64,000 nt of DNA from Thermomonas sp. XSG (GTDB lineage Bacteria; Pseudomonadota; Gammaproteobacteria; Xanthomonadales; Xanthomonadaceae), in contig NZ_CP061497.1 of the NCBI RefSeq assembly GCF_014678725.1, positions 2,744,001 through 2,808,000 on the forward strand, read 5' to 3'. The notes beneath the pieces are model-generated. The model saw only the letters and a list, made by a program, of their open reading frames with translations, ran no database searches and had not been told where the DNA came from. The stretch's first letter is position 1; the number at the start of each line of letters is the position of its first letter. This document shows positions 30,945 to 33,777 of this stretch, in pieces. The translations under genes and the position numbers were made by a program.

Positions 30945-30958
30945 TTGATGCCGGTCAA
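30945..30958 (+). promoter_or_regulatory. FNR/DNR-type box upstream of the HiPIP gene
   Basis: TTGAT-GCCG-GTCAA differs from the FNR/DNR consensus TTGAT-N4-ATCAA at one position. A GATGAT hexamer at 30981-30986 could be the -10 element; it implies transcription from about 30993 and places the box centre at -41.5, the class II activator position. A strong AGGAGG binding site follows before the ATG at 31016. Confidence 0.6.
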
Positions 30959-31015
30959 TATCCACGGATATGGCCTGGCCGATGATTCCCTTATTCCCCA
31001 AGGAGGCTTTCCACC

Positions 31016-31348
31016 ATGAACCAACATGATTCCGGCCGCCGTCGTTTCATCGGTTATGCGGCGCTGCTGGCGCTGGCGCCGCTGGCCGCAAAGGATGTCC
31101 TCGCGCAGGCGAAGGCGCCTGCGGGCGCGCTTCCGAAGCTGCCGCTAGATAATGCCCAGGCCAAGGCGCTGAACTACGTGGAAAGCACGAAGGGGCTGGC
31201 ACACAAGACCTTCAAGGCGGGCAGCGATTGCAGCAACTGCATGTTCTTCAAGGGCGCGGCGGGGCAGGCCTACGGCCCGTGCACGCTGTTCCCGCAGAAC
31301 AGCGTGGCGGCCAAGGGCTGGTGCAGCGCCTGGGCCAAGAAGGTCTGA
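31016..31348 (+). CDS. High-potential iron-sulfur protein (HiPIP)
   Basis: The 110-residue precursor has a twin-arginine signal (GRRRFIGYAALLALAPLAA) and a mature domain with four Cys at 72, 75, 89 and 103 in the HiPIP pattern C-x2-C-x13-C-x13-C (DCSNCMFF, GPCTLFP, GWCSAW). HiPIPs carry a 4Fe-4S cluster in the periplasm and pass electrons to oxidases, reaction centres or denitrification enzymes. The convergent neighbour is a cd1-type nitrite reductase, and both have FNR-like boxes, so this HiPIP is a likely donor to it. An AGGAGG site lies just before the ATG. Confidence 0.93.
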   Translation: MNQHDSGRRRFIGYAALLALAPLAAKDVLAQAKAPAGALPKLPLDNAQAKALNYVESTKGLAHKTFKAGSDCSNCMFFKGAAGQAYGPCTLFPQNSVAAKGWCSAWAKKV

Positions 31349-31381
31349 ACCCGGCATCGCCTGGCGCGATGGTTGCAACCG

Positions 31382-31410
31382 GCGGCGCCCGATGGGCGCC
31401 GCTTTCTTTT
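31382..31410 (+). terminator. Rho-independent terminator of the HiPIP gene
   Basis: A 9-bp stem GCGGCGCCC/GGGCGCCGC with a GAT loop is followed by TTTCTTTT. Confidence 0.85.
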
Positions 31411-31440
31411 CGTCCCGAGATCGGCGCCGGGCTGGCCATG

Positions 31441-31469
31441 AAAAACCCCGCCGGCAGCTGCCGGCGGGG
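31441..31469 (-). terminator. Rho-independent terminator of the nirS-like gene
   Basis: A 24-bp perfect palindrome (31446-31469, arms CCCCGCCGGC around AGCT) is followed on the minus strand by TTTTT. It lies 29 bases after the nirS-like stop. Confidence 0.85.
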
Positions 31470-31498
31470 CGGGGTAGTGCGGGTGGAGGCAATACGCC

Positions 31499-33622
31499 TC
31501 AGTAGACGTCACGCACCGTGTTGTAGACGTTGAATTTGCCGGTCGGGGTGACCAGGCGCTTGTCGTCCAGAACGGCCTTGAGCTTGCGGGTCCTGTCGTC
31601 CACCACCACGATCGCCGAGCGCTGGTTCTTGCCGTTCCACACCGAGAACCAGACCTCGTCGCCCTTGGCGTTGTATTCCGGCTGCACCACGCGCTTGGGG
31701 CCTTCCCCCAGGTTCGCCCATTCCGCGATCGGCAGCACCTGGTACCCCTTGGCGAGGTCGGTGGTGTCGAACACCGCGATCGACTGGCTGATCTTCGGGT
31801 CGGGGTTGAGGGTGGTGTCGACCCACAGGTTCCGTGACTTCGGGTGGGTCTTCACGAACAGCGAGCCGCCGCCCTGGCCCTTCAGCACTTCGCAGACCTT
31901 CCAGGCATAGTCCTTGTGGTTGACCGGATCGGTGGCGATCAGGGTGATCTTCTCGTTGCCCAGCGCCGAGGTCGCCCACACCGGCCCGCACTTGGGATGC
32001 ATGAAGTTGGCGCCGCGGCCCGGGTGCGGGATCTTGTCGACATCGATCAGCGCGGCCAGCTTCTGGTCGCGCGAGTCCACCACCGCGATCTTGTCGCTCT
32101 GGTTGGCCGCGGTCAGGAAATAGCGCTTGGTCGAATCCCAGCCGCCATCGTGCAGGAAGCGTGCGGCATTGATCGTGGTGGTCTTGAGGTTCTCGATGTC
32201 CTCGTAGTTCACCAGCATGATCTTGCCGGTTTCCTTGACGTTGACGATGAACTCCGGGTGCTCGTGCGAGGCCACGATGGCGGCCACGCGAGGCTCGGGG
32301 TGGTATTCCTGCGTGTCCACGGTCATGCCGCGGGTGGAGACGATCTTGAGCGGCTTGAGCGTCTCGCCGTCCATGATCACGAACTGCGGCGGCCAGTAGG
32401 TGCCGGCGATCGCGTATTTGTCCTCGAAGCCCTTGAATTTGGAAGTCTCGACCGAGCGTGCTTCCAGGCCGACCTTGATCTCGGCCACCTTGTCGGGCTT
32501 GGGCAGCCACAGGTCGATCAGGTCGAGGCGCGCATCGCGGCCGATCGTGTAGAGGTAGCGGCCGGAGTGCGAGGTGCGCGAGATATGCACCGCATAGCCG
32601 GTCTTGACCACGTTGATGATCTTCTTGGTGTCGCCGTCGATCAGTGCCACCTCGCCGGAATCGCGCAGCGTCACCGCGAAGATGTTCTCGATGTTGTAGC
32701 TGTTCATTTTCTTCGTCGGCCGCTTGTCGGCGGGGACGAATTCGACGTAGCTGTCGCGCATTTCCTTCATGCCCCATTCCGGCGGCGCCGGCGGTTCATG
32801 CTGGAGGAAGCGCGCCATCGCGTCGATTTCCTTCGGGCTGAGGTCGCCCGAGGTGCCCCAGTTGGGCATGCCGGCCGGCGAGCCGAAGTTGATCAGCGCC
32901 TTCAGGTACTCGGTGCCCTTGGCGCGGGTGATGTCGGGGGTCAGCGGCTTGCCGGTGGCGCCCTTGCGCAGCACGCCGTGGCAACCGGCGCAGCGCTCGA
33001 AGAAGATCTGGGTGGAATGCTTGCGCTCTTCGTCGGTCAGCGCCGGGCCACCCTTGGGATCGTTGGCGATCGCGAGCTCGGCCGCCACCGCAAGCGGCGC
33101 GCCCTCGTATTTGGTTTCCGCCGCGGTGGAGGTGGCGTGCGACTGCGCCGTCTGCTGCGCCTGCGCGGGTGCAGCCGCCGCTGCGCCGCCGGTCGCCTTG
33201 CGATGCGCCTTGACGTGGTCTTCGTCGATCTCGAACGCCGGCGTATTGCCCCAACTGCTGGTGATATAGGTCAGCGCGTTGGCGATGTCCTCGTCGGACA
33301 GGTGGGCCATTGGCGGCATCACGTTGTCGTAGTCCACCCCGTTGACGGTGATCTTGCCGCTGATGCCCTGCAATACCGAATCAATGAGCTTGTCGCGGTC
33401 CAGGCCCTTCAGGTAGTCGGAGCCTGCAAGCGGCGGGAAAGCCCCGGCCAGCCCCATGCCGGTGGGTTGGTGGCAGGCTGCGCAATTGGCGAGGTAGGCG
33501 GCCTCCCCGGCCTCCATCTTCGTCTTGGGCGGGCGCTCGTTGGTGATCTGCGCGATGGCGTAGGCGGACATGCCGCCGAACATCGCCAGCCCCAATGCGG
33601 TCATTGCGACTTTCTTGTTCAT
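31499..33622 (-). CDS. nirS: Cytochrome cd1 nitrite reductase with an extra N-terminal cytochrome c domain
   Basis: NirS reduces nitrite to NO in the periplasm. The C-terminal 420 residues are a d1 propeller very close to Pseudomonas Nir[20 protein letters not shown] (heme d1 ligand His about 346), [20 protein letters not shown] and FLHDGGWD (segments holding the active-site His), then [10 protein letters not shown] and the end [14 protein letters not shown] cytochrome c domain with CAGCH at 211-215 is the usual one. A further cytochrome c with CAACH at 47-51 and a 40-residue Ala/Gln linker precedes it, making 707 residues against about 570. An N-terminal signal helix is present. GGGGAG binding site before the ATG. 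No other nir genes are in the window. Confidence 0.92.
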
Positions 33623-33709
33623 AGGACTCCCCAGTAACGGTTGAAGACGCGATGAAGAGAAACTGCTTTCAATGCACGGTGATTCTCAGCCGGTTGCAGC
33701 CGGGCCGAT

Positions 33710-33723
33710 CTGATTCAAATCAA
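33710..33723. promoter_or_regulatory. FNR/DNR-type box shared by nirS-like and TonB receptor promoters
   Basis: CTGAT-TCAA-ATCAA matches TTGAT-N4-ATCAA at nine of ten positions. On the minus strand GAGAAT (33687-33682) is a possible -10, giving a start near 33675 and the box centre at -41.5. On the plus strand TAGAAT (33745-33750) gives a start near 33757 and the box at about -41. One site thus has class II spacing for both divergent genes. Confidence 0.7.
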
Positions 33724-33777
33724 ATTAAATCCGTCCTCCCGGCCTAGAATCCCGGGGTCCAATTGCAGCCCATTCTC

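Follow-up and report, generated by a model that had tools for sequence, protein, structure and literature searches.

The 64,000-nucleotide stretch of the Thermomonas sp. XSG genome analysed here (contig NZ_CP061497.1, positions 2,744,001 to 2,808,000; hereafter the window) encodes a nitrite reductase, NirS, with an extra N-terminal cytochrome c domain and, divergently from it, a TonB-dependent outer-membrane receptor, with an FNR/DNR-type box between the two genes. The heme d1 synthesis protein NirJ and any second protein of the PF02239 family are missing from this genome, and across its relatives the linkage of a receptor to nirS (within 2.5 kb) and the possession of NirJ exclude each other. 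We consider it probable that such bacteria are heme d1 auxotrophs: heme d1 made by other denitrifiers would be imported into the periplasm and bound there by apo-NirS. The initial annotation of this locus had joined the genes for a HiPIP, NirS and the receptor in one anaerobic or nitrosative regulon; it missed that the receptor is paired with nirS where NirJ is absent, an association suggestive of cofactor uptake.

The genome of strain XSG is a single contig and 100% complete. The best match to the NirJ profile, in a gene that scores as MoaA, reached 43.6 bits (cut-off 515), and the PF02239 search for NirF and NirN returned one match, NirS itself. Without NirJ, NirF and NirN there is no known route to heme d1 in this genome; NirD/L/G/H-type genes were absent from the window and the other stretches fetched from it, the whole genome not having been searched for them. 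Absence of NirJ is common among relatives. Among 250 genomes sampled from the order, 80 encode NirS, and a NirJ match (E ≤ 1e-60) was obtained in two of these (G006 and G017, both with unfused NirS), which leaves 78 of 80 without. In 80 relatives found by NirS similarity, NirJ scored above the cut-off in 10 and below it in three. NirJ was checked in every genome counted and NirF/NirN in 44 genomes, where all 14 with NirJ have two to four PF02239 copies and 29 of the 30 without it have exactly one (the NirJ-less G117 has a second match, of 50.8 bits). Named isolates are among the NirJ-less genomes, namely Dokdonella immobilis, Arenimonas malthae, two Marinicella, two Pseudidiomarina and three Wenzhouxiangella, and so are, besides our strain, the single-contig genomes G058, G037 and G104.

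Additionally, an Acidobacteriota metagenome-assembled genome (MAG; G267, locus L031) has a fused nirS, no adjacent receptor, one PF02239 match and a radical SAM protein with a NirJ score of 190 bits, and is a candidate for another route to heme d1. Seven class genomes (G451, G475, G529, G538, G616, G619 and G681) gave a NirJ match and no NirS at E ≤ 1e-100; they may be incomplete or may encode NirJ-like relatives.

Linkage of the receptor divides along the same line. In the order sample nirS has a receptor match no more than 5 kb away in 70 of the 78 NirJ-less genomes and in neither of the two with NirJ; 40 of these receptors are upstream on the same strand, 20 divergent and 10 downstream. The ten genomes with no linked receptor are the two with NirJ, plus G030, G066, G010, G073, G097, G177, G191 and G229. 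G030 and G066 have an unlinked receptor placed inside the linked clade, G073 has a receptor fragment at a contig end, and G177 (the genome of L074) has no receptor on its 16-kb contig. With a 2.5-kb limit in the set found by similarity, a receptor is adjacent in none of 13 rows with NirJ (12 of the 13 NirJ-scoring relatives plus G006) and in 65 of 70 rows without it; four short-flank rows were dropped, and L031, with its NirJ-like match, was tabulated as NirJ-less, against the reading we favour. The evenly drawn class sample of 369 genomes contains NirS in 68, of which 62 have a NirJ match and six do not (G658 was equated with the source of L054 on the basis of coordinates). Five of the six have an adjacent receptor, and these five are the matches that cover the N-terminal cytochrome; the sixth, G504, has four NirDLGH-type open reading frames and a contig end beside nirS. 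None of the 35 NirJ-containing loci fetched (of 62, with about 5 kb per side where contigs allowed) has a receptor beside nirS, and the exclusion in this sample gives a Fisher value of 8e-6.

The same comparison was made between phylogenetically independent pairs on a tree of 126 NirS proteins, in which 122 rows have both traits scored and a few genomes appear twice. The tree yields eight independent pairs with a difference in NirJ. Seven of these differ in the receptor in the opposite direction, none in the same direction and one not at all in 126 of 200 pairings; the remaining pairings gave six opposite (65 pairings) or five opposite (nine pairings), and never a difference in the same direction. 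The median p was 0.016 (range 0.016-0.063). Exclusion of three unsure rows left seven pairs, mostly with six opposite (median p 0.031), and a smaller tree yielded five pairs, mostly with four opposite (p 0.125). The mutual exclusion of receptor and NirJ survives phylogenetic control.

Judged by its sequence, NirS is intact in the genomes without NirJ. The window protein gives a full-length match, with the c-type heme domain and the d1 propeller, and its d1-site histidines (the proximal and the two catalytic ones) are H346, H491 and H533. They are invariant in all 126 rows (113/113 without and 13/13 with NirJ), and 169 of the 188 positions invariant in the 13 NirJ-containing rows are at least 95% the same among the other 113. 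No in-frame stop codon was found in the NirS matches listed for the order and class samples, and the dN/dS ratio against one congener, G160, is about 0.29 for NirS and about 0.33 for the receptor. We rejected the N-terminal fusion as the cause of heme d1 loss: fused NirS occurs together with NirJ in L036, L038, L039, L058 and L090, and unfused NirS without NirJ in L082 also counters it.

The receptor of the window is a near full-length PhuR homologue with a TonB plug, a barrel and a FRAP/NPxL box; it scores 344.3 to TIGR01786 (cut-off 323.75), and the PDB entry of PhuR, 8the, matches it at E 1e-87. A single-sequence AlphaFold model of it (mean predicted local distance difference test score 31.7) was discarded. 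In a quick tree with long branches flagged, most linked receptors belong to a broad PhuR-like group, separate from a clade of 20 paralogs unlinked to nirS. Other receptor types occupy the same position. In Thiothrix caldifontis (L082:2258-6037), which has no NirJ, an unfused nirS is accompanied by the convergent gene of a distant TonB receptor of 648 aa, and a third type lies directly upstream of fused nirS at L045:7449-9854 and L047:3015-5260, the latter with a reading frame broken near a run of unknown bases. Distant TonB receptors have come into the same place beside nirS in Thiothrix and in one other lineage. Moreover, NirS of G058 and G163 (L189 and L190) is 46-48% identical to that of the window and its nearest tree rows, the other's aside, are NirJ-containing; the receptor of both genomes falls inside a clade otherwise found beside fused NirS (Wenzhouxiangella, Kangiella and Pseudidiomarina type). 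In these two genomes NirS has apparently been replaced and the receptor retained; what the receptor seems to follow is the function of NirS and not a particular NirS sequence.

The strict form of the regulatory box, TTGAYNNNNRTCAA, has 22 matches in the 3.05-Mb genome, and the reversed pattern has none. The box ahead of the HiPIP gene, TTGATGCCGGTCAA, is one of the 22, and the box between nirS and the receptor gene, CTGATTCAAATCAA, departs from the pattern by one mismatch; both are present exactly as the initial annotation gave them. Genes assigned to the annotated part of the strict sites are those for an FNR-like regulator, ccoN, a nirK-cytochrome c fusion with a porin, a U32 peptidase-type protein, hemN, moaA, narK (5' of narG) and a SLAC1 transporter, a set that looks like a normal FNR-type one. 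Ahead of nirS and the receptor the box is kept in relatives: with at most one mismatch, it is found upstream of nirS in 86 of 125 regions, where 3.7 would be expected by dinucleotide shuffling (some genomes count twice, and three of 128 regions with short flanks were dropped). It precedes the receptor gene in 24 of 25 divergent loci, in 18 of 31 with the receptor upstream on the same strand, in three of five convergent ones and in none of 14 with the receptor downstream on the same strand, as expected if the receptor is then on the nirS transcript. Among the unlinked paralogs it was found in two of 20. In T. caldifontis, strict boxes stand before both nirS and the receptor gene. The initial annotation had suggested a search for fnr/dnr homologues, which returned two FNR-like regulators in the genome (211.6 and 175.5 bits to NF008365, both below its cut-off of 228), and we infer that a regulator of this type acts on both nirS and the receptor gene.

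A gene of the Crp/Fnr family lies within about 350 bp of nirS in ten relatives (L034, L040, L041, L042, L048, L063, L074, L078, L084 and L187). The genome of strain XSG encodes NirK as well as NirS: a copper nitrite reductase fused to cytochrome c (L100:11304-12875, minus strand; about C1:2416303-2417874 in the genome; TIGR02376, 367.7 bits) has two strict FNR-type boxes in front of it and a divergent gene for an Alginate_exp-type porin. NirS would thus be a second nitrite reductase beside the NirK fusion.

The claim of class II spacing held in part. In the window, the hexamers GATGAT, GAGAAT and TAGAAT lie about 28-30 nt from the box centres and match the positions -41/-41.5 that the initial annotation had assigned to all three. 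In relatives, the distance between the box centre and the best -10-like hexamer on the nirS side peaks at 29 nt, with z 3.6 for 24 divergent loci and z 4.7 for another 36; receptors upstream of nirS on the same strand with a box of their own show a class II hexamer peak as well (z 4.6, 18 loci). On the receptor side of divergent loci a peak at 30 nt (z 2.8) appears when the receptor's own best box is used and is gone when the distance is measured from the nirS box; it is produced by four loci with separate boxes (L024, L044, L196 and L197; the receptors of L044 and L196 are identical). Where one site is the best for both genes, as in 21 divergent loci with the window included, nirS has z 4.1 and the receptor z 0.8-1.2. 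Class II control of nirS is well supported by these patterns. A single site driving two divergent class II promoters, as had been proposed, finds no support in the relatives; in the window it is a fit of the sequence, not a conserved feature.

We propose that low oxygen would be sensed by an FNR-type regulator, whereupon apo-NirS with its covalent c hemes would be made in the periplasm of an organism that has no known pathway to heme d1. Other denitrifiers would be the source of heme d1 or of a late precursor, the divergent TonB-dependent receptor with the same box in front would carry the released compound over the outer membrane, and the cofactor would bind apo-NirS directly in the periplasm. 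As NirS works in the periplasm, no inner-membrane transporter would be needed, and an outer-membrane importer would be enough. The compound imported is presumably heme d1, neighbouring cells its likely origin, and insertion would proceed with no helper protein. PMC3694632 describes NirS and NirN as proteins of the periplasm and NirF as a lipoprotein attached to the membrane; NirS is reported there to work in vitro with a synthetic precursor of d1 and to accept d1 from NirN. Loss of dihydro-d1 from NirS on a column, described in PMC7278500, makes free cofactor from dead or leaky denitrifiers plausible. In the portions of the open-licence literature consulted, no report was found of heme d1 uptake or of nirS lineages lacking d1 synthesis and paired with a receptor.

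A number of observations weigh against heme d1 uptake. Residues G131 and N509 of the receptor occupy the columns that we take to hold the axial His/Tyr heme ligands of PhuR, and His and Tyr are likewise absent from these columns in the unlinked paralogs, so that the sequence gives no pointer to a tetrapyrrole. The missing ligands would be compatible with a different tetrapyrrole and are no proof of one; the receptor's kinship with canonical heme receptors was rejected as proof of the substrate. The nearest thing to a counter-example is L038 (Sulfidibacter corallicola), which has NirJ elsewhere in its genome, a porin gene 446 bp from its fused nirS and a TonB receptor gene 3.0 kb upstream, beyond the 2.5-kb limit and within the 5 kb of the order sample. 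Conversely, L031, L062 and L074 have neither NirJ over the cut-off nor an adjacent receptor. The receptor profile derives mainly from linked receptors, and other TonB types beside nirS in NirJ-containing genomes could escape it. At the 21 shared-site loci, class II spacing of the receptor from the common box was not found. Wenzhouxiangella AB-CW3, which has nirS, is reported in PMC7691419 to have grown slowly on nitrate after adaptation, in pure culture on peptone plus maltose, and nitrite did not accumulate; nitrite itself supported no growth and was reduced far more slowly. Three Wenzhouxiangella relatives of AB-CW3 have no NirJ, and if AB-CW3 lacks it too, it must obtain d1 from the medium, make it otherwise or use another enzyme. 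Its weak nitrite use fits a shortage of cofactor; NirS activity there would need explaining. Finally, a d1 route unrelated to NirJ and NirF may lie beyond the reach of homology.

Such an undescribed heme d1 pathway, with a receptor that imports iron, heme b, a siderophore or some other need of denitrification, would account for the pure-culture growth of AB-CW3 on nitrate with no nitrite accumulation (PMC7691419), for receptor family members unlinked to nirS and for the absent PhuR ligands. However, a general need for iron or heme should not disappear in genomes that make d1, the receptor as a neighbour is exclusive with NirJ in both samples (2.5-kb limit), and at least three receptor types stand in the same place beside nirS; we regard this explanation as unlikely. 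If NirS instead used a different heme, for example heme b, or no heme at the d1 site, and served another function with the receptor supplying that heme, the lack of NirJ and the single PF02239 protein in 29 of 30 NirJ-less genomes tested would follow. The invariant d1-site histidines and the 169 of 188 retained positions speak against this, and cells already deliver heme to the periplasm for c-type cytochromes; we consider this reading improbable. Slightly more doubtful still is an ordinary FNR/DNR regulon in which nirS and the receptor gene are neighbours because both are induced anaerobically, with no metabolic link: the conserved boxes and the other FNR-type targets in the genome agree with it, but co-regulation does not predict the exclusion of the receptor by NirJ, and six NirJ-containing loci have a strict box and no receptor (L083, L088, L090, L091, L095 and L099). 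That nirJ was merely missed through assembly or sampling is very improbable, for although many relatives are MAGs and G504 suggests that it can happen, the genome of strain XSG is complete in one contig, three more (G058, G037 and G104) consist of a single contig each, named isolates lack NirJ as well and the PF02239 counts agree.

Within the regulon proposed initially, the boxes of nirS and the receptor gene are conserved, whereas the place of the HiPIP gene as third member is only weakly indicated, by one genome. A tblastn search of 109 other nirS loci, many of them with flanks of just 1.5 kb, gave no HiPIP-like sequence, and a phmmer search of a partly overlapping set gave no HiPIP-like open reading frame; the three-gene layout is not repeated there, and HiPIP was rejected as a conserved partner of nirS. 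In strain XSG it might donate electrons. Upstream of the HiPIP gene, positions 28989-30812 of the window encode a 607-aa protein with DUF7844 and Lnb_N domains, which as far as seen lies outside the nirS/receptor unit. Another observation is a porin-like outer-membrane protein (weak PF13372) near nirS in 30 of 101 loci within the fetched flanks, often directly downstream (e.g., L055:11992-13227), possibly a nitrite-related porin. It was rejected as the importer: the strain's own nirK also has a neighbouring porin of this Pfam family, and a homologue lies beside nirS of the NirJ-containing L038, so that it does not track the loss of d1. Family searches confirmed the initial identification of HiPIP, fused NirS and TonB receptor, and the features are listed below.

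Features of the nirS/receptor locus in the window of Thermomonas sp. XSG
Feature	Position	Strand	Location, identity and basis
FNR/DNR-type box TTGAT-GCCG-GTCAA, TTGATGCCGGTCAA	30945-30958		5' of the HiPIP gene; sequence, one of 22 strict genome sites
-10-like hexamer GATGAT	30981-30986	+	implied HiPIP start at about 30993; predicted from sequence
HiPIP, 110 aa	31016-31348	+	PF01355, 74.8 bits
Fused NirS, 707 aa	31499-33622	-	family searches; PDB 5guw/1bl9, E about 1e-264
NirS domains	residues about 37-124, about 204-273 and 310-702		extra cytochrome c, cytochrome c and cytochrome d1 propeller, respectively
-10-like hexamer GAGAAT, nirS	33682-33687	-	implied start at about 33675; sequence and spacing peak in relatives
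FNR/DNR-type box CTGAT-TCAA-ATCAA, CTGATTCAAATCAA	33710-33723		between nirS and receptor genes
-10-like hexamer TAGAAT, receptor	33745-33750	+	implied start at about 33757; window sequence only
TonB-dependent outer-membrane receptor, PhuR-like, 739 aa	33778-35997	+	PF07715 and PF00593; proposed heme d1 importer

The wider claim, that a large share of the nirS bacteria of the order and of related class lineages are heme d1 auxotrophs with neighbour-derived cofactor, a dedicated TonB receptor under oxygen control and NirS loading without NirF/NirN, has in our estimate an even chance of being right. If it is, heme d1 would be a shared public good that couples partial to complete denitrifiers. The nirS gene is a standard marker of denitrifiers, and its counts would then overstate the number of independent nitrite reducers; if most nirS genomes of the order cannot make the cofactor, nitrite reduction there would be community-dependent. 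We know of no earlier case of heme d1 uptake, nor of a respiratory cofactor supplied from outside the cell directly to an enzyme of the periplasm, and this would be the first of either.

Compared to known systems, NirS of the window aligns over its full length (c-heme domain and d1 propeller) with NirS of Pseudomonas aeruginosa and Paracoccus and shares the d1-site histidines, but has an additional cytochrome c at the N-terminus and is encoded in a genome that lacks both NirJ and a second PF02239 protein. A further cytochrome c joined to the front of NirS is also known from C1-C2-NirS, whose full order is confined to Chloroflexi according to PMC8756737; the likeness to C1 is one of arrangement, and two-cytochrome NirS occurs here in many Gammaproteobacteria. 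In contrast to a self-sufficient nirS denitrifier with its nir cluster, strain XSG lacks NirJ, NirF and NirN. The promoters resemble class II denitrification promoters of the FNR/ANR/DNR type in the sequence of the box, the -41.5 spacing at nirS and the Crp/Fnr genes beside nirS in ten relatives, and differ in having a TonB receptor among the targets and, at the shared box, a receptor spacing that is not conserved. With PhuR and the heme/hemoglobin receptors of TIGR01786/TIGR01785 the receptor shares nearly full-length homology, plug and barrel, and the FRAP/NPxL box; unlike PhuR, it has not kept the axial ligands, is partnered with nirS and is preceded by an FNR-type box. BtuB serves the TonB-dependent uptake of a finished tetrapyrrole cofactor, vitamin B12, and heme d1 import would likewise be TonB-dependent scavenging of a finished tetrapyrrole, with the difference that the cofactor would serve in the periplasm, with no inner-membrane step.

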